In this document: piece after piece, positions 50,824 through 62,728 of the stretch | How the letters are laid out: every line of letters begins with the position of its first letter | Position numbering within the stretch: the stretch's first letter is position 1 | Origin: Nisaea sediminum | GTDB lineage: Bacteria; Pseudomonadota; Alphaproteobacteria; Thalassobaculales; Thalassobaculaceae | Length of the DNA: 64,000 bases | NCBI RefSeq assembly: GCF_014904705.1 | Contig: NZ_JACZCQ010000003.1 | Span: forward strand, 744,001 to 808,000 | Direction: 5' to 3' | Program-made: the position numbers and the translations under genes | The notes under the pieces: generated by a model | Databases searched by the model: none | What the model was told of the DNA's origin: nothing | What the model saw: only the letters and a program-made list of their open reading frames with translations

Positions 50824-51363
50824 CTAGTGATGTTCCTTGTCATGCCCGGGTTCGGCCAGTTCGGACATGGTCCGAACCAAATCGACGATCCGCGTCCGTG
50901 CATGCTCCGGCAGGTCGCCCCAGAGACGCACAAGCTCGTTCGCCTGACGACGCGCCAGCGGAGAGTCCATCTCGACATCGTGGGCGCTGGCAACCGGCGG
51001 CGCGATATCCTCGGCCCCCAGCAGCCGGGCGGGCGATTGTGAAATCGTCTGCTCGTCCATCTCGTCGAAGAAGTAAGACACCGGCGTGTTCAGGACCGAT
51101 GCGACGTCGAACAGACGGGACGCACTGATCCGGTTGTCCCCGCGTTCGTATTTCATGTACTGCTGGGACGTCACACCGATCTTCTGCGCGACGATCCGCT
51201 GCGTCATTCCCATTTCCTTGCGGCGGCGCCGCAGGCGCGCGCCGACGAATACATCGACCGGATTGTTCGCATTTGTCTTGCCCCGATCCGCCGAGTCTTT
51301 TTCGGACGCCTGGCCGGAAGCGTCCGCTGCCTCGTCAATCAGACGATTGGCGGCATTTTTCAT
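50824..51363 (-). CDS. XRE-family transcriptional regulator
   Basis: A 179-residue protein. An N-terminal polar tail (1-30) precedes a Cro/C1-type helix-turn-helix at about 38-97: MGMTQRIVAQKIGVTSQQYM is the HTH proper, followed by YERGDNRISASRL and the PVSYFFDEM end typical of alphaproteobacterial XRE proteins. The C-terminal 80 residues are helical and unassigned. The ATG at 51363 has a GGGGTG site; the TTG upstream has none. It stands alone at the end of the purine region, with a 469-nt upstream gap. No target can be named. Confidence 0.82.
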   Translation of the reverse strand: MKNAANRLIDEAADASGQASEKDSADRGKTNANNPVDVFVGARLRRRRKEMGMTQRIVAQKIGVTSQQYMKYERGDNRISASRLFDVASVLNTPVSYFFDEMDEQTISQSPARLLGAEDIAPPVASAHDVEMDSPLARRQANELVRLWGDLPEHARTRIVDLVRTMSELAEPGHDKEHH

Positions 51364-51832
51364 AATCACCCCCCGATCCCTCAAGAGTTCCCTAAACCGA
51401 AAATTGCCAAAACCCCGAATTACAATGAGGTAAAGACAATAACTTCATCTCTGGTTGAGATACCTGTCCTAAAAGCTTTCTGCTACGCTGAAAAACGCGC
51501 CGCCGGACTTTGATGCCGCGCTACCGAGACCTGAAGCGGTTCTTGTAATTTCTTGCGTGGCTGGCGTCTAGGTCGTTAACCATACCATGTTGCGCCGGAA
51601 CGATCAATTTCCACGTGGACGTTATAGGTGAATTTTTCGACACCCACGAAACAAATACTATTGGTTGCGCAGATCGCCAGAAAGCTGACATTTGCGCTAA
51701 ATACGGGCTTCGCGACCCGCTGCGCCCGTCAAATTGCCATCAACCTTTACGATCTAAAGTTGACCATGGGGCAATAACTTGAAGATTGCATTGTCGAACC
51801 CGAAGTCTACTATCCGATTGAAAGGAAGCGCC
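51364..51832. other. 469-nt intergenic region, AT-enriched
   Basis: A divergent promoter region between the XRE gene and the FAD monooxygenase gene. I see no coding sequence with a good start. An inverted repeat ATCTC-TGGTT-GAGAT occurs at 51447-51461, about 85 nt upstream of the XRE start, and could be an autoregulatory site. No tRNA-like or repeat structure is visible. Confidence 0.45.
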
Positions 51833-52954
51833 ATGAAGCTCGATATCGCCGTCATCGGCAACGGTCCCACAGCCCAACTTGCGACCCATGCTCTTCGCGA
51901 TGCCGGGTTCGAGGCCGTGATGGTCGGCCCCAGGGCGGACCGGGACACGGACCCGAGAACCACGGCCCTGATGCCCTCCAGTGTTGATTCGCTTGATATC
52001 CTGGGCATAGACGTCCGTTCGAGAGCGACGCCGTTGCTCGATCTCCGGATCGAAACCACGGGCCCGTTCGGCCTGGTGACGGAAAATTTCACGGCAGACG
52101 ATGCCGGAGAAGAGTTTCTCGCGCAAAACCTGTTTATCCGCGACCTGATGGCCGTCATTCCGGACGTGCCGGCCGTCGCATCGCATGCCACGGGCGTCTT
52201 TCCCGGCGACCGAAGCGTCCGGATCGAGACCGCGGACGGATCGACGCTCGAAGCGGCCCTCGCCGTCGCCGCCGACGGCCTCCAATCGATTGCCCGGGAA
52301 GCCGCCGGCATTGCCCTGCGCAAGCGCCCGCTCGGCCGCAGTGCGCTCTGTGTCCCGGTGCGCCTCGAACATCCGCACGATAGGCTCTGCATCGAGCGTT
52401 ATGACGATACCGGCACGCTGACCCTGATCCCGGTCGCGGAATACGATGCCTCCCTGATCACGATCGCCTCTCCGGATGATATCGGTGCGCTGGCCGCCTG
52501 CGACGACGAAACAATCGCGCGCAAGTTGTCGCGCCGACAGACCGCCTTCGGGAAGATCGCGTTCAGCGGCGCCAAGGCAGTATTCCCCCTCACTCTCGGC
52601 TTCACGCCCCGTCCGGCGCGCAATCGCGTGGTGGCCATCGGGGAGAGCGCCCACATCGCGCCACCGATCGCCGCACAGGGCTGGAACATGTCGGTACGTG
52701 ATATCATGACGCTGACCGAACTGCTGCGCTCGGCGCGGGCGGAGGACCGGGACATCGGATCCGCGGAGACTCTCGCGCGCTATGCGCCGCGGCGGCAGCC
52801 GGACGTCGCTGGACGGCTTTCGGCGATCGGCGCTCTTGCCGGCGTGGCGACCCGTCCTTACGCGCCTCAGAAACTGCTGCGTCAGGCGGGCCTGATGGCC
52901 CTCGGCCGGTTCCAGGGAGCCAAACGCGGCCTGATGCGCGCCGGCCTCCGGTGA
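51833..52954 (+). CDS. UbiH/COQ6-type FAD-dependent monooxygenase
   Basis: A 373-residue flavin monooxygenase of the aromatic-hydroxylase superfamily. The N-terminal dinucleotide motif is IGNGPTAQLATHALRDAG, where the third conserved Gly is replaced by Ala. The DG motif is AVAADGLQSIAREAAG and the C-terminal FAD motif is IGESAHIAPPIAAQGWNMSVRD, closest to UbiH/UbiF ubiquinone hydroxylases. GGAAG lies before ATG 51833. It may hydroxylate a quinone precursor or another ring. It overlaps the following secreted-protein gene by 4 nt. Which position or substrate it uses is not determinable here. Confidence 0.8.
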   Translation: MKLDIAVIGNGPTAQLATHALRDAGFEAVMVGPRADRDTDPRTTALMPSSVDSLDILGIDVRSRATPLLDLRIETTGPFGLVTENFTADDAGEEFLAQNLFIRDLMAVIPDVPAVASHATGVFPGDRSVRIETADGSTLEAALAVAADGLQSIAREAAGIALRKRPLGRSALCVPVRLEHPHDRLCIERYDDTGTLTLIPVAEYDASLITIASPDDIGALAACDDETIARKLSRRQTAFGKIAFSGAKAVFPLTLGFTPRPARNRVVAIGESAHIAPPIAAQGWNMSVRDIMTLTELLRSARAEDRDIGSAETLARYAPRRQPDVAGRLSAIGALAGVATRPYAPQKLLRQAGLMALGRFQGAKRGLMRAGLR

Positions 52955-53613
52955 GCCGGCTGCGGACAGGCCCCGCAATTGCACTTGTCCTGGCGATCCT
53001 CGCCGCAGGCCTCGCGAGCCTGGGCGCCGGAGCGGCCGAAACCGCACTTCCCCCGCCCCTTGCCCGGCTCAGCTTCGGCATGGCACTGGACGACGCACGC
53101 AGCGCCCTGCCGGACGCCCAATATCTCGAGGACGGTCTCGACTTCGGCGCGCTGAAAGGTTTGCTGGTCTTGCAGGCCGTCCCGACGCTGGGCTCCAGCT
53201 TCCGGATCTATCTGCAGTTCGACGGGGACACCCGGCTCCGGCAGGTTCTCCTCGAACGGCGCCATGCGGCGGCGACACGCAAGAGCGCCCGCACGGTGCA
53301 GGACGCTCTTCTGCAGCGATATGGAAAGCCCGCGGAAATCTGTATGCCGGTTCATGCGACGCCGGCGGCGGGCCGGATCACATGGCGCACCGAGGACTGG
53401 TCCCTGCATCTGGTCGGGATCGACGATCTCGGGCTCGGCATGCTGACCGAGGATGCCGACCGAAGCGATGCCCTGGAGAACAAGCCGATCGCACGAAGCC
53501 GCGATGAACGGTCCCGCGACCGCCAGCAACGCAGTCTGCCGCGTCGGATCCTGATCAGGATCCACGGGACCGGAGACACACAGCTCCTGCCACCGCCCTG
53601 CGGTGCCGGTTAG
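52951..53613 (+). CDS. Secreted protein of unknown function
   Basis: A 220-residue protein starting at a GTG that overlaps the previous stop (GTGA). Residues 1-29 form a signal peptide ending AGAAE. Two partly similar halves of about 60 residues (around LARLSFGMALDDARSALP and LLQRYGKPAEICMPV) may each be a small alpha/beta unit. The C-terminal 45 residues are basic and rich in Arg and Asp. I do not recognise the family. Coupling to the UbiH-like gene suggests a shared task, but no function is evident. Confidence 0.6.
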   Translation: MSRLRTGPAIALVLAILAAGLASLGAGAAETALPPPLARLSFGMALDDARSALPDAQYLEDGLDFGALKGLLVLQAVPTLGSSFRIYLQFDGDTRLRQVLLERRHAAATRKSARTVQDALLQRYGKPAEICMPVHATPAAGRITWRTEDWSLHLVGIDDLGLGMLTEDADRSDALENKPIARSRDERSRDRQQRSLPRRILIRIHGTGDTQLLPPPCGAG

Positions 53614-53998
53614 CGCATCGGGATCAAGACCTGCACACTGACAGACGAATGCCCGTCAGCGGCGGCGCACCCCGAGAAACGCTCCTGCGACAAAAGGTGA
53701 GCTCAACATTGTTCCAACGCCTGCCGTGCCAAGACATGCAAAAATACTCATCGACAAATCATGAATTCATCGATCACCACAAAGTATACGCGAAATATTA
53801 TTTACTTTTTGTGTTTAAAGTACCGAATTGTAAGATCGCACCCTCATTTATCCTTGAATTTTATTTGTCAGAACGATGACAAACAGATCGCCGTTATGTG
53901 ACAGCGAAAATGCCCGAGGCGCCGCGCCGGGACCTTGACAGCGGACAGGCCGCGGTGTTCGCTCTGCGCGTCTCGGAAACAGCCGGGTTTTCAAAGGG
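53614..53998. other. 385-nt AT-rich leader before the creatininase/RibD genes
   Basis: No convincing gene. A 76-codon open frame (53649-53879) has no ribosome-binding site or recognisable sequence. The middle 180 nt are much AT-richer than the flanks and contain a palindrome ATGAATTCAT (53761-53770) and an inverted repeat at 53864-53883. It probably holds the promoter of the creatininase-RibD operon. Confidence 0.5.
53864..53883. promoter_or_regulatory. Inverted repeat TTTGTCA-n6-TGACAAA
   Basis: A perfect 7-bp inverted repeat with a 6-nt spacer, 115 nt upstream of the creatininase-family gene. TGTCA-type arms are common in operators of several helix-turn-helix regulator families. It could control the cluster that begins at 53999. 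No regulator gene is adjacent on that strand, so the binder is unknown. Confidence 0.45.
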
Positions 53999-54805
53999 AT
54001 GCCTGTCCACATCTGGGGTCACCTGACGACGGAGGAATTCGCGGCGCTCGATCCGTCGCGCACGCTCGCTCTGCTGCCCGTCGGCGCGACCGAGCAGCAC
54101 GGCCCGCACCTTCCCCTGGCAACCGACATCCTGATCACCGAAGCGGTCCTCGCGGCCGCATCTGAACGGGTGCCGGACAACCTCATGCTCCTGATCCTGC
54201 CGTCCCAGGCCATCGGCCTCAGCCCCGAGCATATGAGTTTTGTCGGCACCCTCACCCAGGCGGCGGAAACCCTGATAGCGTCCTGGACCGAGATCGGCCG
54301 CTCCGTTGCCGCCGCAGGCGTGCGCAAGCTGATCCTTCTAAACAGCCATGGCGGCCAGCCCCAGATCGTCGATATCGTTGCCCAGCGCCTGCGCAGCGAA
54401 GCCGGAATGCTGGCGGTCCGGGCGAACACCTTCCGCTTCGACATTCCGGACGGGATGATCGATCCGGACGAGATGAAACACGGACTGCATGGCGGCCAGA
54501 TCGAGACCGCTCTGATGCTGGCGATCGCGCCAGAACTCGTTCGGACGGCCAAGATCGCGGACTTCCCGAACTCCGCCGAAGCCAGGACCGCCAGATCGAA
54601 ACGGCTCGGACTCTCCGGAGCTGGCGGTTTCGCCTGGAACGCGGAGGATCTCAATCCGTCCGGCGCGACAGGAGCGGCGAGCCGCGCGACGGCGGATCAG
54701 GGTGCCGCCCTGCTCGCCGCCTACGGACAGCAGCTTGCCGACCTGATCGCGGATGTCGCGGACTGGCCGCTGAGCGACGGCGCCCCGTTCGGCGAACAAA
54801 GATGA
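53999..54805 (+). CDS. Creatininase-family hydrolase (ArfB/MftE-like)
   Basis: A 268-residue metalloenzyme. The creatininase-fold metal site is intact: Glu32, His34 and His37 in GATEQHGPHLP, Asp43 in ATDIL, His117 in NSHGG, and Glu169 in HGGQIET. The family hydrolyses amide bonds in small cyclic or formyl compounds; members include creatininase, the archaeal riboflavin/F420 deformylase ArfB, and MftE. Here it overlaps a RibD-type reductase gene by 4 nt, a pairing that mirrors the ArfB-ArfC steps of archaeal riboflavin synthesis. Deformylation of a GTP-derived pyrimidine is therefore a reasonable idea, not shown. Confidence 0.82.
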   Translation: MPVHIWGHLTTEEFAALDPSRTLALLPVGATEQHGPHLPLATDILITEAVLAAASERVPDNLMLLILPSQAIGLSPEHMSFVGTLTQAAETLIASWTEIGRSVAAAGVRKLILLNSHGGQPQIVDIVAQRLRSEAGMLAVRANTFRFDIPDGMIDPDEMKHGLHGGQIETALMLAIAPELVRTAKIADFPNSAEARTARSKRLGLSGAGGFAWNAEDLNPSGATGAASRATADQGAALLAAYGQQLADLIADVADWPLSDGAPFGEQR

Positions 54806-55548
54806 GCGGCATCTGGAGGGAAATCCTCGCCGGGCTCGGAAAGAACACCCCGGAAGACACCGGGGTGGAAGCGCAAGACGTCCCCTGGGAGCTGTATCGC
54901 GACCTTGCCGCGGCCTGCGCGGATCGGCCGACCGTCATCGCACAGATCGGACAGAGCCTCGACGGCCGCATCGCGACCGAGAGCGGACACTCACACTATG
55001 TGAACGGACCCGAGAGCCTCGATCACCTGCATCGGCTCCGGGCCCTCGCCGATGCCGTCGTGGTCGGCGCGACGACCGCGGTACTCGATAATCCGCGCCT
55101 GACCACCCGCCGGGTCCCGGGCCCCAACGCAGTGCGCGTGGTGATCGACACGCAGGGCAGAGTGCCGGCAAGCCATGCCCTGCTGACCGAACCGGACGCG
55201 GAAACCCTGCTCGTTTCAGGCACGCGCCGCGGCAATCTCCCGGAACATTGCGGCATGCTGGACGCCACCGGTCCGGACGGTCGCGCGGACCCGCATCTCC
55301 TGCTCGAGGCACTTCGCGGGCGGGGGCTCAGCACTATCCTGATCGAAGGCGGCGGACAGACGATTTCCCGGTTCCTGTCGGAGAAGCTGATCGACCGGCT
55401 GCAGGTCTCGGTCGCACCGATGATCATCGGCTCGGGCCGGCCGGGACTTGTGCTGCCAGAAATCGAGAAACTCGACGCCGCCCTACGCTTCGAGGCGCGG
55501 ACCTATCCGCTCGGCAAGGATACGCTGTTCGACTGCAGGCTCAGCTGA
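54802..55548 (+). CDS. Stand-alone RibD-type reductase
   Basis: A 248-residue protein with only the reductase domain of RibD (dihydrofolate-reductase fold); the deaminase half is absent. Motifs are AQIGQSLDGRIA (about 47-58), HRLRALADAVVVGATTAVLDNPRLT, and ILIEGGGQTISRFL near the C-terminus, which bind NADPH and the ribosylaminopyrimidine. Such proteins reduce a ribosylamino side chain to ribitylamino or act as related oxidoreductases. An extra 40-residue N-terminal segment is unusual. It overlaps the creatininase gene by 4 nt and ends 8 nt inside the convergent methyltransferase gene. Confidence 0.84.
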   Translation: MSGIWREILAGLGKNTPEDTGVEAQDVPWELYRDLAAACADRPTVIAQIGQSLDGRIATESGHSHYVNGPESLDHLHRLRALADAVVVGATTAVLDNPRLTTRRVPGPNAVRVVIDTQGRVPASHALLTEPDAETLLVSGTRRGNLPEHCGMLDATGPDGRADPHLLLEALRGRGLSTILIEGGGQTISRFLSEKLIDRLQVSVAPMIIGSGRPGLVLPEIEKLDAALRFEARTYPLGKDTLFDCRLS

Positions 55549-56341
55549 GCGGCACCGCGAACAGGTCCCGATGGCCGACATAGATCCGGGTCTCCGGACG
55601 GGCCAGCAGAGCTGCGCCCCAAGCCGCGATCTCCTCGCGATCGAGCGGCGCGATCTCGCCCGCGGCGGACACCCAGCCCTCGACAAGCTCCCGCGCGCCC
55701 GGATCGCCTGCCGTCAGACTCCAGTCGCTCGCACCCTCCTGCACACGGTAACCTCGCCGGGTCAGGCCGTCGACCATGGCGGCATGTGCGCCCGGGCCGA
55801 GCGCGGGACCGAAGCCCTTGTCGCCGTGCTGGTGATCGTTCACCAGTGCTTCCAGATTCTCCGCCTCCTCGTGATCGCCTTCGATATCGATCCGTCCGTC
55901 ATAGGTCAGCACCGCGAGCAGGGCACACCCGCGCGCCGCCACGGCATCGAGGAAGCGATCCATCCATTCCGTCGAAACCAGATCGAAGAGCGCCGAGGCA
56001 GTTACCAGATCCGCATCTTCCAACAGCGGGGAGATATCCGATGCGGCGAGATCGAGGTTCTCCACCGCGATCCGGTCGTCAGTCTTCAGCGCGGCATGGC
56101 CGACGGCACGGTCCAGCAACGCAGCGTCGCTGTCCACCAAACGCCAGTCGCACGGCGTTTTCAGCAACGGCGCCAGATGGCGCTGGTTGTTTCCCGTTCC
56201 GGCGCCGAGATCGAGTATCCGGAGCGGTGCCGACCGAACTCCGGCCCATTGCACCAGCGCGCCCTCGACTTCGGGGCTTCGCGCCGCCCGGTCCCAGACC
56301 GCGCGTGCCGCGAGCCAATCCGCAGAGAACCCGCCGCTCAT
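55541..56341 (-). CDS. Class I SAM-dependent methyltransferase
   Basis: A 266-residue Rossmann-fold methyltransferase. Motif I is RILDLGAGTGNNQ (about 42-54); motif II ends in WRLVDSDAALLDRA; the motif around ADLVTASALFDLV matches the substrate-side strand. Length and layout are those of small-molecule methyltransferases. Its start overlaps the glycosyltransferase stop by 4 nt, so it is translated last of four coupled genes. Its tail overlaps the RibD-type gene on the other strand by 8 nt. The acceptor is unknown. Confidence 0.8.
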   Translation of the reverse strand: MSGGFSADWLAARAVWDRAARSPEVEGALVQWAGVRSAPLRILDLGAGTGNNQRHLAPLLKTPCDWRLVDSDAALLDRAVGHAALKTDDRIAVENLDLAASDISPLLEDADLVTASALFDLVSTEWMDRFLDAVAARGCALLAVLTYDGRIDIEGDHEEAENLEALVNDHQHGDKGFGPALGPGAHAAMVDGLTRRGYRVQEGASDWSLTAGDPGARELVEGWVSAAGEIAPLDREEIAAWGAALLARPETRIYVGHRDLFAVPLS

Positions 56342-57420
56342 TGCAGCGTCACTCCGTCGACGGCGCGCTGAAAGGACGTTTGCGCTCGCGCCCAGTCGGA
56401 AAGTCCCGACGCCGCGTCGCGGCTCCGTGCGGCGAGTTGCCGACGCGCGCCATCATCCCCGAGAAGCGTTCGGAGTGTCTGCCCGAGACCGTCCACGTCA
56501 CCCGCGGGCACTTGCTCGGCCGCCGTGCGCACGGCCTCAGCAACGGCACCCTCTTCAGTCGTGACGACCGGAAGCCCGAAGGCGACTGCATCCGCCAGTG
56601 CCATACCGAAACCCTCGTGATAGGTGGCTGAGAGAAAAAGGCTGGCCCGGCGGTGCAGCTCCACCAGCTTTTCTTCGCCGACCTCGCCATGGAAGGTCAC
56701 GCGCTCCAGGATCCCCAGCTCCCCAGAAAGCGTCTTCAGGTCCGCACCATGTTCCGGGTCGCGCGGCGCGCCGACGATGTCAAGGCGCCAGTCGAGATCG
56801 CTGCAGGAGGCCAATGCCTTCAGGGCGACGTCGTGCCCCTTACGCTTCGTCAGGGTCGCCACTGACAGGACGCGGACAGGTGCGCTCCCGTCTCCTATCC
56901 AGCTTTCGCCCCGGGCCCATTCGGCGATACCCGGCTCCACCACACGCACTGCAGAGGGATTCACGCCGAAATCGCGCAGCCGCAGAGCCGTTCTGGCGCT
57001 GGAGACGACGATGCGCGTGACGTCCCCCAGCACCGCCTTTTCGGCGGCGAAGAACGCCTCCCTCTCCCGCTCGCCGAGCCCGGTCTCGTCGGCGAGCGGG
57101 TGGTGGATCATCGCCACCACATCGAGCCGGGACCCGTGCTGGGCGACCACCTGGCCGAGCGCGGTCAGGGCGAGACCGTCGATCACGCAGAGCGCGCGGT
57201 CCGGCAGCCCGGCCAGTACCGCCGCACCGGCGGCAACGTCGTAGGGCGCCGCGCGCGGGAAGTTGCCGGAAAGTTCATGGACGGCGCCGAGCCGGCCTGC
57301 CGCCTGCAATCCATCGACCATCTGCCGGTCATAGATGAAGCCGCCCGTCAGCGTGCCGAGCGGCCCCGGAACGATGAAATGGACCGGGAGGCCGGGATAC
57401 TGCAGCCGTGCGGGTGTCAC
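56338..57420 (-). CDS. GT4-type glycosyltransferase
   Basis: A 360-residue GT-B glycosyltransferase. The donor-binding C-terminal domain has [21 protein letters not shown] (about 183-203) and the EX7E-like element [12 protein letters not shown] (about 266), where the second Glu is Asp. The N-terminal acceptor domain begins [20 protein letters not shown]. It overlaps the pterin-synthase homologue upstream and the methyltransferase downstream by 4 nt each. In this company it more probably glycosylates a small molecule than a polysaccharide; that is inference. Confidence 0.82.
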
Positions 57421-57815
57421 AATGTCCCCTCGTAGGAGGCCCAGGCGATGTGGGACTCGTGAAGCGTCACCTTCATACCCGCGAGGCCCAAGGCCGTCTC
57501 GCCGAGTTTTCCGGCGCGGATCGAGGCCGCCATGGCCTCGTAGATGTGCCGGGCAAGAAACTCGGTGGTGGTGTTCTCGCCGGCGAACTCCGGCAGTTCG
57601 TCGAGATTGCGGTAGGCGAGCGGCGCCAGAACCGCCTTCAGTTCTTCCGACGCGGCGCCGATATCGATCACGAGATTGTCCGCGTCCAGCTCCGCGCGGC
57701 GAAACTCGACATCAACCACATAGGTCGCCCCGTGCAGGCGCTGCGCCGGCCCGAAGGTCGGGGAGTTGAAGCTGTGCGCGATCATCACGTGGTCGCGGAC
57801 GGTAAGTGCGTACAT
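57417..57815 (-). CDS. PTPS/QueD-like protein with altered active site
   Basis: A 132-residue T-fold protein homologous to 6-pyruvoyl-tetrahydropterin and 6-carboxytetrahydropterin synthases. His14 in IAHSF and His28 in RLHGATY match two of the three zinc ligands. The third ligand (LHGH in the family) is Ala30, the catalytic Cys four residues before the first LHG His is Ala24, and the LDH motif is LAY. The substrate-binding Glu in [14 protein letters not shown] is kept, as is the TTTEFLA segment (normally PTSENLA). It therefore should not catalyse the usual lyase reaction and may do something new. It is coupled to the glycosyltransferase gene. Confidence 0.82.
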
Positions 57816-57827
57816 GAATTGCTCCGG

Positions 57828-58835
57828 TCAATCAGGATAGCGGATACGGTGGCAGAGAGTCTCGGGCGCGCCGGATGTAAGCTTCGCCATGACCTTCGGC
57901 AAGTCCTCGAACGGGCACTCACCGGTGATCAGAACGTCGAGCGCGGGATCGTCCAGCAGGCCGATGGCTTCGGCGAGCCGCTCCCGGTGCCGCGCGCCCT
58001 GGCGCCGGGACGGGGCGACCGCACCGACCTGGGAGGCCTGGATCGTCAGGCGCTGCGAATGGAAGGCGCCGCCGAGCGGCAGCGAGACCTCGCGATCGCC
58101 ATACCAACTGAGCTCGATGATCGTCGCCTCGAAGGCGGCTAGGTCGAGCGCCCGGCGCAGCCCGGCCTCCGTCGCGCTGGCGTGGAACAGAAGACTGAAT
58201 TTTTCGGGATGCCCGCCCGCGCCGGCATAGCGCAGACCGAGCGCCTCGCAGACCGCCGACCGGCTTTCAACCGGATCGAAGACCCACACCTCCTCGCCCC
58301 AGAAACGGCGGGCGAGGTAGCCCGTGAGAAGCCCGACCATGCCGCCGCCGATGACGCAGAGTTCCTTGGCGCGCGCCGCCTCGGCATCCCAGACGGCATT
58401 GAGCGCGGTCTCCATGTTAGCGGCCAACACCGCCCGCTCCGGCGACACCGTCTTCGGCAGCGGGATCGCTGCGTCGGTCGGGACGACATAGCGGGTCTGA
58501 TGCGGATAGAGCACAAAGACCGGCGTCCCCTTCTTGAGCCCGTCACCCCCTGCGACCCGGCCGACCGAGGCATAGCCATATTTCACCGGGCCCGGGAAAC
58601 GTCCCTCCTGAAACGGACAGGCCATGCGGTCCCACTCGGAACGCGGCACACCGCCCCGGAAGACGAGGCTCTCCGTCCCCTTGCTGACCGCGGAATAGAG
58701 CGCCTCGACCAGCAGCTCGCCGTCCGCCGGCTCCCGAAGCGTTTCCTCGCGGATTTCCCCCTGCCCGTTGCCGTGCGACCAAAAGGCCCTCGCAACGCGC
58801 ATATTCCTGCCCAAATCTGATTTCATGGTTCCCAT
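57828..58835 (-). CDS. MDR-family dehydrogenase lacking the catalytic zinc site
   Basis: A medium-chain dehydrogenase/reductase of up to 335 residues. The usual catalytic Cys position reads YSAVSKGTES and the GHE motif is absent (KYGYASVGRV), so the catalytic zinc is missing, as in BchC-like and some other MDR groups. The nucleotide-binding segment is CVIGGGMVGLLTGYLARR (about 157-174). The N-terminus is uncertain: ATGs at 58835, 58826 and 58802 are all possible, and the last best matches family starts. It precedes the pterin-synthase homologue by 12 nt and heads the four-gene minus-strand arm of the cluster. A redox step on the cluster product is likely. Confidence 0.8.
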   Translation of the reverse strand: MGTMKSDLGRNMRVARAFWSHGNGQGEIREETLREPADGELLVEALYSAVSKGTESLVFRGGVPRSEWDRMACPFQEGRFPGPVKYGYASVGRVAGGDGLKKGTPVFVLYPHQTRYVVPTDAAIPLPKTVSPERAVLAANMETALNAVWDAEAARAKELCVIGGGMVGLLTGYLARRFWGEEVWVFDPVESRSAVCEALGLRYAGAGGHPEKFSLLFHASATEAGLRRALDLAAFEATIIELSWYGDREVSLPLGGAFHSQRLTIQASQVGAVAPSRRQGARHRERLAEAIGLLDDPALDVLITGECPFEDLPKVMAKLTSGAPETLCHRIRYPD

Positions 58836-58875
58836 CCGGGCGTCCGGCCCGAGAGTTCATTCCTGGAGGCGTAAT

Positions 58876-59454
58876 ATGAAACTCCCCTCGCGCGCAGCAA
58901 AAACTATCGTGAGCCTGCTTGCCGTTCTGGTGATGCTCGCGGCCGGCGCGGCGCCGAGGGCGGAACCGGCGCGCTACGAGGTCGATCCGGACCATCTCTC
59001 GATCACTTTCCGGACCAGCCATCTCGGGCTGGCCGATAGCCGCGGCATGTTCCTCACCGGCGAGGGCAGTTTCAGCTTCGACGAATCCGCTCCCGCGATC
59101 CGCGACATCCGCTTCACTGTCGAGCCGGCCGGAGCCTTTACGCCTCCTCAAACAGGGAGCGATGAAAGCCCCGTCTCCGGTACCCGGATCGCGTTCGTCG
59201 GCAAGCAGAGCCGGCAGACCGGCCCGCGCACCGGAACCGTGACGGGCGATCTGACCCTCAACGGCGTCACCGGGCCCGCCACGCTGAAACTCACCTGGAT
59301 CGACAACCAGGACTTCCCCTTCCGCTCGAAACACCACGCAGTGGCGCTCTCGGTCGAGACGCGGATCGACGACCGCACCTTTGGGGATACTGGAAACCCA
59401 AGCGGCGAGATGGATCTGCAGATCGATTTCGAGGCGAAGCGGGTCGAAGGGTAG
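58876..59454 (+). CDS. YceI-family periplasmic protein
   Basis: A 192-residue exported protein. Residues 1-30 are a signal peptide (AAGAAPRAEP end). The rest is a YceI beta-barrel lipocalin-like domain: RYEVDPDHLSITFRTSHLG, GSFSFDESAPAIRDIRF, and the NGVTGPATLKLTW region. Such proteins bind long-chain polyisoprenoids or related lipids in the periplasm. ATG 58876 has a GGAGG site 6 nt upstream. It is divergent from the MDR gene (about 40 nt between starts) and may or may not belong to that cluster. Confidence 0.86.
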   Translation: MKLPSRAAKTIVSLLAVLVMLAAGAAPRAEPARYEVDPDHLSITFRTSHLGLADSRGMFLTGEGSFSFDESAPAIRDIRFTVEPAGAFTPPQTGSDESPVSGTRIAFVGKQSRQTGPRTGTVTGDLTLNGVTGPATLKLTWIDNQDFPFRSKHHAVALSVETRIDDRTFGDTGNPSGEMDLQIDFEAKRVEG

Positions 59455-59573
59455 CTTTCGCCGTCCCAACGCAGACGTCATTCCCCCCCCAGGCGGGGGG
59501 AGCGCTTAACAAGAAAAAGGGGCGGCATTGGCCGGGCCCCCCCGTTCTTTTCAATGAGGCTGCGCAAAAAACC

Positions 59574-60200
59574 TCAAGGCAGTTCCATGCCGCGCTGCAG
59601 GGCCGGACGCGCCATCATGGTGTCGTACCAGCGCTTCACGTTCGGGAACTGCGCGAGGTCCACTTCCTGCCAGTCGTGCCGGAACACCCAGGGCAGGGTC
59701 GCGAAGTCGGCAATGGAGACCTCGTCGTTGGCGAGATAGTCCCGGCCCTCGAGACGGCTGTTCAGCACGCCGTAGAGACGCAGGCATTCCTTGCCGTAGC
59801 GCTCGATGCCGTAAGGCACCTTCTCCTTGGCGGCACGCTTGAAATGGTGCACCTGGCCGAAGATCGGGCCGATGCCGCCCATCTGGAACATCAGCCACTG
59901 GATGACCTCGTAGCGCTTGCCCATCTCGGACGGCATGAACTTGCCGGTCTTCTCGGCGAGATACATCAGGATCGCGCCAGACTCGATGACCGTGTAGGGC
60001 TTTCCGCCCGGTCCGTCCGGATCGACGATCGCCGGGATCTTGGAGTTCGGGTTGATGGCGATATATTCCGGCGTGAACTGATCGTCCTCGCCGATATTGA
60101 TCGGATGCAGGTTGTACGGAATCCCGCACTCCTCCAGCATGATCGTGATCTTGCGGCCGTTCGACGTCTTCCACGTATAGCATTCGATCGGTGCCGTCAT
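59574..60200 (-). CDS. Glutathione S-transferase, YfcG-type
   Basis: A 208-residue GST with an N-terminal thioredoxin-like domain (about 1-85: [41 protein letters not shown]) and an all-helical C-terminal domain. [20 protein letters not shown] is the signature of the Nu-class disulfide-bond oxidoreductases YfcG/YghU, so glutathione-dependent disulfide reduction is a better guess than xenobiotic conjugation. AGAGGGGG precedes the ATG. It stands alone and is separated from the upstream molybdenum-enzyme gene by a terminator. Confidence 0.88.
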
Positions 60201-60235
60201 GGCGTCCCCCTCTGAATTCTGGAACTTGCATACAA

Positions 60236-60267
60236 AAAAGACGGCTGCGTTTCCGCAACCGTCTTTT
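60236..60267 (-). terminator. Rho-independent terminator
   Basis: On the minus strand a 14-bp stem with one mismatch (AAAAGACGGTTGCG with CGCAGCCGTCTTTT) and a 4-nt loop is followed by TT and GT. It lies just after the end of the CoxL-like gene and before the GST start. The T-run is clear on the minus strand. Confidence 0.75.
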
Positions 60268-60278
60268 CGGAACGGGTC

Positions 60279-62576
60279 TTATTCGGCCGCGGCGAGCCGG
60301 CGCTCATTTGCGGCGGCCCAGATCTTCTCCTGGGTCGCCGGCATGTCGATATTGGTAATGCCGAGCGCGTCGCAAACGGCACTGATCGCCGCCGGCGGGG
60401 CGCCGATGGCCCCCGCCTCGCCCGAGCCCTTGATGCCGAGCGGGTTGGTCGTGCACCAGACATTGTGCGTGGTGAAGTCGATCAGCGGCACCTGATCGGC
60501 GCGCGGCAGGTTGTAGTCCATGTAGGAGCCGGTCATCAGCTGGCCGCTCTCCTCGTCATAGACAGCATGCTCGTAGAGCGCCTGGCCGAGACCCTGGCCG
60601 ACCCCGCCATGCACCTGGCCCGCCAGCATGTTCGGATTGATGACCGAGCCGAAATCGTCGACCACGGTGTAGCGCTGGATCTCCGCGATACCCGTATCCG
60701 GATCGATTTCCATCTCGCAGACATGGCAGCCGTTCGGGAAGGTCGCGGCTTCGGGAATGCGCTCGTGCACGGTATCGAGCCCCTCTTCCGCCTCGCGCCG
60801 GACATCGAACAGCGACATGGTCTTGTCCGTCCCGGCGACGGTGAAGGTGCCGTCGGCGAACTCGATATCCTCGACCGCGGCCTCCATGACACGGGCCGCG
60901 ACCTTCTTGCCTTTCTCGACGATCTCGCGCCCGCCGAGCAGCACGGCGACGCCGCCGACCGGCAGCGCCCGGGAGCCGCCCGTCATGCCCGGGGGCGTGC
61001 GGTCGGTATCGCCTTGCACGACGCGGATCCGCTCGCCGTCGATGCCGAGCACCTCGCCCAGCACCTGCGCATAGGCGGTCTCGTGCCCCTGTCCGTTGGA
61101 CTGGTTGCCGATATAGATCTCGATCTTGTCGTCCTCGGTGAAACGGATGTCGGCCGTGTCCGGATTGCCGCCGCCGCACTTCTCGATGTAGTAGCCGAGA
61201 CCGAGGCCGCGCAGCTTGCCGCGCTTCTCGGAGTCAGCCTTGCGGGCCGCGAAGCCGTTCCAGTCGGCCCGCTCCATGCATTTCTCCATCACGGTCTGGA
61301 ACTCGCCGGTGTCGTAGACGTTGCCGAGCGCGGTGCTGTACGGCATCTGATCGGGCCGGATGAAATTCCGCCGGCGGATCTCGTCGCGGGAGAGCCCGGT
61401 CGCGGCGGCGCAATTGTCCATCACCCGCTCGATCAGATAGGCCGCCTCCGGTCGGCCCGCGCCGCGATAGGCGTCGGTCGGCGTGGTGTTGGTGAGCACG
61501 CCTTTGACGTTCACATAGATCGACGGAATGTCGTAGACGCCCGAGAGCATGTGCGTCCCGGCTTCGGTCGGAATGTAGGGACCGAAATTGCAGAGATAAC
61601 CGCCGAGATTGGCAAAGGTCTCCACCTTCAGGGCGATGATCTTGCCGTTCTCGTCGAGCGCGGCCTTCACATAGGAGATGTTGTCCCGCCCCTGGCTGTC
61701 GGACATGAAGGCTTCCGAACGGTCCGGCGTATATTTCACCGTCCGCTTCAGGCGCCGCGACGCCCAAGCAATCAGACATTGCTCCGGATAGAGGAAGATC
61801 TTCATCCCGAAGCCGCCGCCGACATCGGTGGTGATGCAGCGCAGCTTCGACTTGTCGATCTTCAGCACCGTTTCGGCAAGATGCGGGTGAATGAAGGACG
61901 GGCCTTGGGTCGAGCTGTAGAGCGTGGTGCGGTCGGTCGCGGCATCGTAGAGCCCGATGGCGCCGCGCGGCTCCATCGAATTGACGATGATCCGGTTATT
62001 GACCACCCGGGTCTCCACCACACGGGACGCCCGTGTGAAGGCCGCATCCGCCATCTCGAGGTCGCCCTTGTGCCAGTCGAAGCAGATGTTGTTCGGGATA
62101 TGATCGTAGAGCTGGGCCGCGCCGGGCTTGGTCGCCGCCTCGGTGTCCGTCGCCGGAGCAAGCGGTTCGTAGTCGATCTCGATCAGCTCCGCGGCGTCGC
62201 GGGCTGCCTCGAGGGTCTCGGCGATCACCATGGCGACCGGAGTCCCGACATGGCGCACCGTGTCGCCCTCCAGGATCGGACGCGGCGTGTCAGCCCTCGG
62301 GCTGCCGTCCTTGTTCGCCGCCGGCGCGAGGCAAGGCAGATCGCCGAGCCCGTCTTCCTTGACATGCTTGTTGGTCAGTACCGCGACCACGCCCTGTACA
62401 GCCTCGGCGTCCGCGGTCTCGACCGAGGTGATCTTCGCGTGCGCATAGGGCGAGCGGAGAATATAGGCGCGCAGCGCGCCGTCCGGCGCCACGTCGTCCG
62501 TATAGTTCCCCTGGCCGGTCAAAAGGCGCTGGTCCTCGACACGTTTGATCGCCTGACCGATACCGAATTTAACCAT
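60279..62576 (-). CDS. Orphan molybdenum hydroxylase large subunit (form-II CoxL-like)
   Basis: A 765-residue molybdopterin subunit. GGGFGMKIF and the active-site loop [12 protein letters not shown] are visible; the AYRGAGR loop defines the form-II (BMS) group, whose physiological substrate is uncertain. [14 protein letters not shown] near the C-terminus carries the catalytic Glu. ATG 62576 has a GGAGG site 6 nt upstream; the TTG just before it is less likely. No FAD or Fe-S subunit is next to it, so it must use partners encoded elsewhere. Carbon monoxide oxidation is not supported by this loop alone. Confidence 0.85.
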
Positions 62577-62728
62577 CAAAAGCCTCCATATCGGATCGCA
62601 GCCTGATTGCCGCGCCGTTAATCTCTCGGGCGCGATGTTAGGAGGGGAGAAGTCTGGCGCTCAAGCATGAATTGGGATAGCAAGACTTCTCTTCACGTAC
62701 CCGTCACAGAGATAAGGGCTCGACGCCC

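Follow-up and report, generated by a model that had tools for sequence, protein, structure and literature searches.

A conserved PTPS-IV gene neighbourhood in Nisaea sediminum and a candidate pathway to a glycosylated, methylated pyrimidine or pterin

Introduction

PTPS-IV is a subfamily of COG0720 for which the motif FGPAQ has been given as the signature, and in the accessible text of the 2017 network study that gives it, PF00925 and PF01872 lie in the neighbourhood of a PTPS-IV cluster of 561 sequences (PMC5445326). Here we analyse a six-gene cluster of Nisaea sediminum that encodes a T-fold protein of this subfamily, P0005, at positions 53999-58835 of the window, by which we mean the whole stretch of 64,000 nucleotides studied (contig NZ_JACZCQ010000003.1, positions 744,001 to 808,000 of the forward strand). 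The closest solved structure to P0005 is SCO6650 of Streptomyces coelicolor (3d7j), which matches it over the full length with an E-value of 3.2e-52. Its authors are said to have found no zinc and no PTPS activity in it, and a pterin-binding site that is kept. In the same SCO6650-SCO6655 region, SCO6655 is named GTP cyclohydrolase II (GCH II) in the accessible part of another paper (PMC2853524).

Through the SCO6650 structure and the part of the 2017 network that links PTPS-IV to PF00925 and PF01872, the neighbourhood was partly visible before. Our literature search, which subscription papers were mostly outside, found no product and no paper with the whole gene set. The first-pass annotation of the window had presented the locus as a candidate undescribed pathway; this stands in that no characterised pathway with the set was found, and it has to be narrowed by the partly known PTPS-IV neighbourhood, as the accessible text of PMC5445326 describes it, and by the counterpart at SCO6650.

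Results

The six-gene neighbourhood is a real unit. Its core consists of the genes for a medium-chain dehydrogenase (MDR), PTPS-IV, a glycosyltransferase (GT) and a methyltransferase (MT), to which a RibD_C reductase is the usual companion and a creatininase-family protein an optional one. In a reciprocal survey of a fixed set of 289 alphaproteobacterial genomes, MDR, PTPS-IV and MT were each searched separately. PTPS-IV was present in 36 of the genomes, MDR in an identical list of 36, and MT in 33, every one of which is among the 36 (G053, G246 and G277 are those without an MT match). The chance of two 36-of-289 lists agreeing is ~1e-46, a figure to be read with the reservation that related genomes are not independent. 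MDR and PTPS stand side by side in 34 of the 36 genomes; in one of the two exceptions (G233) the two genes are on opposite strands, ~1.6 kb separates them and the MT is 63 kb off, and in the other (G035) they are on separate contigs. The E-value limits differed among the three genome surveys (1e-20, 1e-40 and 1e-10), and each was fixed before its result was seen.

Gene order was compared at PTPS-anchored loci, of which the first set comprises the best 80 of at least 550 PTPS relatives in a one-genome-per-species collection and is skewed to close relatives. The gene-family models were built on these 80 loci, so that a further 54 (L092-L145), taken from surveyed genomes, are the out-of-sample part; together they give 134 loci, L091 being excluded because it probably duplicates L004. 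In a second survey, which covered 398 genomes of the phylum, 27 had PTPS-IV; four of these places were already in the set, and 20 of the 23 others were added. Loci were mapped as six-frame domain maps, as long overlapping open reading frames (ORFs) hide genes in ORF-based maps. Gene absence is not firm at 18 of the first 80 loci, which are shorter than 15,400 bases.

The order MDR-PTPS-GT-MT is colinear in 121 of the 134 loci. MDR and GT were each found in 132 loci, MT in 126 and RibD_C in 101, followed by a CDP-alcohol phosphotransferase (87), GCH II (69), a flippase-like protein (61), creatininase (48), FkbM (29), a sulfatase-fold protein (28) and YceI (22). The corresponding counts in the best 80 of at least 550 relatives were GT 80, MDR 79, MT 78, CDP-alcohol phosphotransferase 66, RibD_C 58, flippase-like 53, GCH II 47, creatininase 38, sulfatase-fold 19, FkbM 15 and YceI 12, and in the 54 out-of-sample loci MDR 53, GT 52, MT 48, RibD_C 43, GCH II 22, creatininase 10 and YceI 10. 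All six gene families of the window occur together in 38 of the 134. Co-occurrence of all six, which the first-pass annotation had named as a check, is thus true of a minority of loci, creatininase being found in about a third of them.

In the N. sediminum window all six ORFs are open and form two convergent arms. The plus-strand arm contains P0001, a creatininase-family metal-dependent amidohydrolase (53999-54805; Pfam E-value 3.8e-68), and P0002, a stand-alone RibD_C reductase (54802-55548; Pfam RibD_C, 1.3e-39). On the minus strand lie, in ascending coordinates, a class-I S-adenosylmethionine (SAM)-dependent MT (55541-56341; a weak Pfam match, 1.9e-6), a GT4-family GT with a GTG start (56338-57420; Pfam, 1.9e-26), the PTPS-IV (FGPAQ) T-fold protein P0005 (57417-57815; Pfam PTPS, 3.8e-24) and a BchC-like MDR (57828-58835; NCBIfam bchC, 2.2e-14, below cut-off, and predicted fold). 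The arms, their extent and the families proposed in the first-pass annotation are therefore confirmed, by Pfam for five genes, the MT weakly, and by NCBIfam and predicted fold for the MDR. Its claim of 4-nt overlaps within the arms is correct at three of the four junctions and fails at the PTPS-MDR junction, where there is a 12-nt gap; the arms meet tail to tail with an 8-nt overlap between the RibD_C and MT ends. Loci L004 and L005, from other Nisaea species, hold all six genes in the arrangement of the window, and the window PTPS is 85-86% identical to Nisaea PTPS. No sigma-70-like promoter was found across 53500-59600, including the 40-nt divergent intergenic region between the MDR and the neighbouring YceI-like gene (58836-58875), and an Rfam scan of 51000-61000 gave no match.

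The FGPAQ motif occupies residues 21-25 of P0005, the genome's sole match to PF01242, and is invariant in 19 of 19 aligned members. In the alignment with animal PTPS (1b66), a Cys is replaced by Ala, HGH by HGA and DH by AY; we take these residues to be the PTPS catalytic Cys, the His-Gly-His metal site and the Asp-His pair. The Glu of the HESH motif, presumably the ligand anchor, is kept in PTPS-IV. The QueD model scored P0005 at 41.6 of 89.25 bits, below the cut-off. Because the catalytic and metal residues of PTPS and QueD are lost, PTPS-IV is unlikely, judging from these alignments, to carry out the PTPS reaction, and the first-pass annotation needs correcting on this point. Roles in queuosine, tetrahydrobiopterin and folate synthesis were rejected on account of the same loss. 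A PTPS-IV-like gene is carried on 20 plasmid records, 14 of which name it '6-carboxytetrahydropterin synthase', and a queuosine term appears in the three that were examined; this annotation is very probably wrong.

For the MDR, Pfam gave no match, and the best NCBIfam match, bchC, reached 53.3 of 291.25 bits. Its predicted fold, with a predicted local distance difference test score (pLDDT) of 84.6, matched MDR alcohol dehydrogenases in Foldseek (E-value 1.5e-19). The catalytic zinc of MDR alcohol dehydrogenases is usually held by Cys...His-Glu ligands; these are gone here, and S-x-GTE and KYGY stand at the catalytic zinc-ligand sites in 10 of 10 aligned members. The predicted model of the MT (pLDDT 95.3) has SAM methyltransferases as its structural matches. 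For both proteins the structural searches confirmed the fold and gave no indication of the substrate.

The reductase P0002 has its nearest structures in the entries 6p8c and 2azn, of the ArfC type (2,5-diamino-6-ribosylamino-pyrimidinone 5'-phosphate reductase), and from the alignments to them it carries SLDG, HxLRA and DNPRLT-type motifs. Against TIGR01508 it scored 105.2 of 186.45 bits, below the curated cut-off. Elsewhere the genome holds another RibD (C2:5357), a RibBA on contig C2 and a GCH II on contig C6. Because of this other RibD, P0002 is probably not for riboflavin, that is, probably not the housekeeping copy. The GCH II on C6, a separate gene of 389 residues, is the only one of the genome with intact cysteines and is canonical (HSEC, Tyr). 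As a side observation, the GCH II half of the RibBA (820-2010 of locus L003; C2:7281 of this genome, G000) is without the zinc cysteines and adjoins an ORF that by eye is riboflavin synthase-like. GCH III was dropped as a source of substrate, none being present in this genome.

The presence of GCH II near the cluster in 69 of the 134 loci strengthens the link to GTP-derived pyrimidines that the first-pass annotation had drawn. Together with the RibD_C count, it also confirms the PF00925 and PF01872 neighbourhood of the 2017 network; the window itself has PF01872 only. The nearby GCH II genes fall into classes. In 14 actinobacterial loci the Tyr of the KLRAY motif is changed to His or Met, and creatininase is present in all 14. 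The HSEC+Tyr form was found in 15 loci, none of which has creatininase, and the HS[ASC]C+Tyr form in 37, of which 26 have it; the genes of L032 and L061 could not be assigned to a class. Of the 15 HSEC+Tyr genes, six come from alphaproteobacteria; in the tree five of these cluster with the C6 gene, and that of L102 branches beside that part. From this grouping, the alphaproteobacterial genes may also function in riboflavin synthesis. The Met is residue 120 in one Streptomyces GCH II homologue and 119 in two others, and we take residue 120 to be its place in SCO6655, an enzyme reported to stop at the formyl intermediate.

In the creatininase-family protein, E32, H34, D43, H117 and E169, which we take to be metal ligands, are invariant in 13 of 13 aligned members. 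The first-pass comparison of P0001 with ArfB needs correcting, as P0001 scored 20.3 of 180 bits on the curated ArfB model NF033501 and the family is found in a minority of loci. It comes closer to MftE (110.7 of 172 bits) and creatininase (84.9 of 235 bits), both also below cut-off; 10 of the 13 cluster creatininases match the ArfB model weakly, with E-values up to 0.001. The creatininase is an accessory member and possibly a deformylase. Such a role fits the pattern of GCH II classes at other loci, and we keep it as a suggestion. Near 8 of the 11 HS[ASC]C loci without creatininase, no clear candidate for a replacement deformylase was seen among ORFs read by eye, with no family search; of the remaining loci, L059 lies at a contig end, and L026 and L029 were outside this reading.

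In many hosts the cluster has membrane and lipid-type neighbours. CDP-alcohol phosphotransferases are recognised by an active-site motif, and its residues are kept in 8 of 8 aligned cluster members; the enzyme most resembles CDP-diacylglycerol types, the one member for which scores are available staying under the cut-off. A flippase-like domain was matched in 7 of 7 scanned proteins. In the N. sediminum genome, the CDP-alcohol phosphotransferase gave weak matches only (best 6.7e-6), and flippase-like relatives lie on C2 and C14, outside the cluster. Recurrent neighbour families were identified by a Pfam scan on six representatives, with some small recurrent families outside the scan. In the flanks of the 134 loci, an OpgH-like glucosyltransferase was found in 25 and cytochrome b561 in 15, beside the 22 with YceI; the background rate available for these flank families is this genome's single YceI. 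The membrane and lipid-type enzymes at related loci make it plausible, judged on gene content, that in many hosts the product is exported or linked to the membrane; for N. sediminum this is no more than a possibility. In the accessible parts of the S. coelicolor literature, SCO6655 is listed with genes that are anticorrelated with predicted flux, and the majority of that list increase in stationary phase (PMC2853524). SCO6652, which by gene order would be the MT of the cluster, is tabulated for first and second mycelium with values of 0.8, 4.3 and 4.1 in the accessible text of PMC3610822.

Beyond the six genes, a YceI-like protein with a signal-like N terminus is encoded on the plus strand at 58876-59454, divergent from the MDR. 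It is the only PF04264 match in the genome, and no YceI match was found in the examined flanks of the two other Nisaea species (L004 and L005); we regard it as a probable accessory member. In some alphaproteobacteria an OpgH/MdoH-like glucosyltransferase is divergent from the MDR (6079-7881 in L146; also L121, L143 and L145). Farther on in the window, at 60279-62579, lies an ORF resembling a large molybdenum hydroxylase subunit, CoxL-type by eye only.

The core is found on a plasmid in Methylosinus trichosporium OB3b, and it is also present in Streptomyces and halomonads. The PTPS-IV-like genes of the 20 plasmid records are 48.8-65.9% identical, and 15 of the plasmids are predicted to be non-mobilizable, four mobilizable and one conjugative. 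The neighbouring cluster genes are present in the three records examined (L146, L147 and L148 are among the plasmid loci). Two small genomes of 1.4 and 1.6 Mb (L122 and L123, from G259 and G161) retain all six genes in a divergent form, together with GCH II. Two loci are filed under unexpected hosts, L040 as a Natrialbaceae archaeon and L053 as Bifidobacterium breve; their clusters are proteobacterium-like in identity, and they are probably misbinned metagenome pieces.

Discussion

From the composition of these loci we consider it on balance probable that the PTPS-IV cluster encodes a widespread biosynthetic pathway, in which an ArfC-like reductase would act on a GCH II product and the end product would be a pyrimidine or pterin bearing a sugar and a methyl group. 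In this scheme the starting compound, 2,5-diamino-6-ribosylamino-pyrimidinone 5'-phosphate or its N-formyl precursor, would come from GCH II, whose gene lies within or next to the cluster at roughly half of the loci and, in N. sediminum, elsewhere in the genome. If the N-formyl form is the one produced, the creatininase would strip the formyl group. The ArfC-like RibD_C protein would then reduce the ribosyl to a ribityl group. PTPS-IV, a T-fold protein that has the ligand-anchoring Glu and is without PTPS chemistry, may shape or close the ring, and the zinc-less BchC-like dehydrogenase may oxidise or reduce a side-chain alcohol or ketone. Glycosylation would fall to the GT4 enzyme and methylation to the MT. 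In many hosts, the CDP-alcohol phosphotransferase and the flippase-like, YceI or sulfatase-fold proteins could attach the product to a lipid or move it to the envelope.

A more specific version of this pathway is possible, and we hold it as doubtful. Members of Pseudomonadota, Actinomycetota and Acidobacteriota would make a lipid-anchored or exported glycosylated, methylated ribitylaminopyrimidine or pterin, perhaps a membrane redox or light-absorbing cofactor. The CDP-alcohol phosphotransferase would join its GTP-derived head group to lipid; once flipped to the outside, the compound would have YceI or cytochrome b561-type proteins as partners. PTPS-IV would have a new, probably metal-free reaction.

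Several observations weigh against the proposed pathway or its parts. No GCH II, CDP-alcohol phosphotransferase or flippase gene is found inside the N. sediminum cluster, the PF00925 matches of this genome lying outside it on C2 and C6. Among the 69 GCH II loci, that of L101 is a weak fragment and that of L105 lies 3.65 kb away. RibD was not found in the flanks at 33 of the 134 loci, including 10 of the 14 with the His or Met form of GCH II. The envelope genes are unevenly distributed: in 35 alphaproteobacterial clusters the CDP-alcohol phosphotransferase was found in 12 and the flippase in none, and both are rarer in the 54 out-of-sample loci (21 and 8, respectively). The His/Met class of GCH II is one clade in the tree, so the association between GCH II class and creatininase rests on few events, and 11 of the 37 HS[ASC]C+Tyr loci are without creatininase. 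In the tree the C6 GCH II of N. sediminum groups with the canonical HSEC+Tyr forms, and because this only intact GCH II is canonical, a deformylase role does not explain P0001 here. A strict formyl-pyrimidine deformylase tied to GCH II class, attractive as it was, was rejected given the few independent events, the 11 exceptions, the two loci without a class and the misfit of the window.

Three other explanations were considered. The PTPS fold, GT and MT share one operon and the HESH Glu is kept in PTPS-IV, as would be expected if the cluster made a soluble pterin glycoside of the known, cyanopterin-like kind from dihydroneopterin triphosphate supplied by GCH I, with PTPS-IV acting on the pterin. 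We judge this unlikely, as the cyclohydrolase near the clusters is GCH II (PF00925, at those 69 loci), the PTPS catalytic residues are gone and such a route has no place for a ribosylaminopyrimidine-type reductase; no GCH I was among the six Pfam-scanned recurrent neighbour families, although no search was aimed at it. An envelope-glycan or glycolipid locus, in which T-fold and RibD-like proteins have been turned to sugar chemistry without any GTP-derived ring being made, would account for the GT4, MT, CDP-alcohol phosphotransferase, flippase-like, sulfatase-fold, OpgH-like and FkbM neighbours. It is quite unlikely in our view, since without a GTP-derived pyrimidine there is no easy explanation for the frequency of GCH II or for how strongly the reductase matches the ArfC type.

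GCH II and RibD_C are also enzymes of riboflavin synthesis, and the F420 precursor likewise derives from a ribitylaminopyrimidine, which would suit an auxiliary branch of either route. To our knowledge the GT, MT and MDR have no role in riboflavin or F420 synthesis, and this genome has its other RibD, its RibBA and its GCH II elsewhere. One paper cites, in its accessible text, unpublished work that places PTPS-IV in F420 synthesis (PMC5041015). In the N. sediminum genome, no CofH was found above cut-off (best 33.8 of 374.1 bits), for which an F420 role was rejected, and the auxiliary branch as a whole is very improbable.

If a membrane-linked pterin or ribityl-pyrimidine is indeed the product, it would add a new class to the known cofactors or envelope lipids. 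SCO6650, a protein of solved structure, and a PTPS subfamily of unsettled function can now be placed in a defined genetic setting that hardly varies across phyla.

Each of the known systems shares some parts with the cluster. The bacteriochlorophyllide dehydrogenase BchC is the best NCBIfam match of the MDR, which stays far below its cut-off. Cyanopterin-type glycosides resemble the proposed product in bearing a sugar, and possibly a methyl group, on a GTP-derived ring; they are made with GCH I and a pteridine glycosyltransferase, and no GCH II, reductase or CDP-alcohol enzyme is known to take part. In archaeal riboflavin synthesis, ArfC-type structures are the nearest to RibD_C and ArfB belongs to the broad family of the creatininase, and the window proteins score under the curated cut-offs of both. 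The PTPS-IV subfamily of COG0720 has FGPAQ in common with P0005; the accessible text of PMC5445326 makes no mention of MDR, GT, MT, CDP-alcohol phosphotransferase, flippase or creatininase and gives no product. In Streptomyces, the order CDP-alcohol phosphotransferase-MDR-PTPS-GT-MT-flippase-creatininase-GCH II (L083, and L147 with the flippase unannotated) fits the SCO numbering of the SCO6650-SCO6655 region. P0005 matches SCO6650 of that region, and SCO6655, in the place of GCH II, is said to make the formyl product. Compared with the Streptomyces order, the N. sediminum window is without the GCH II, CDP-alcohol phosphotransferase and flippase genes, and its RibD_C gene adjoins that of the creatininase.

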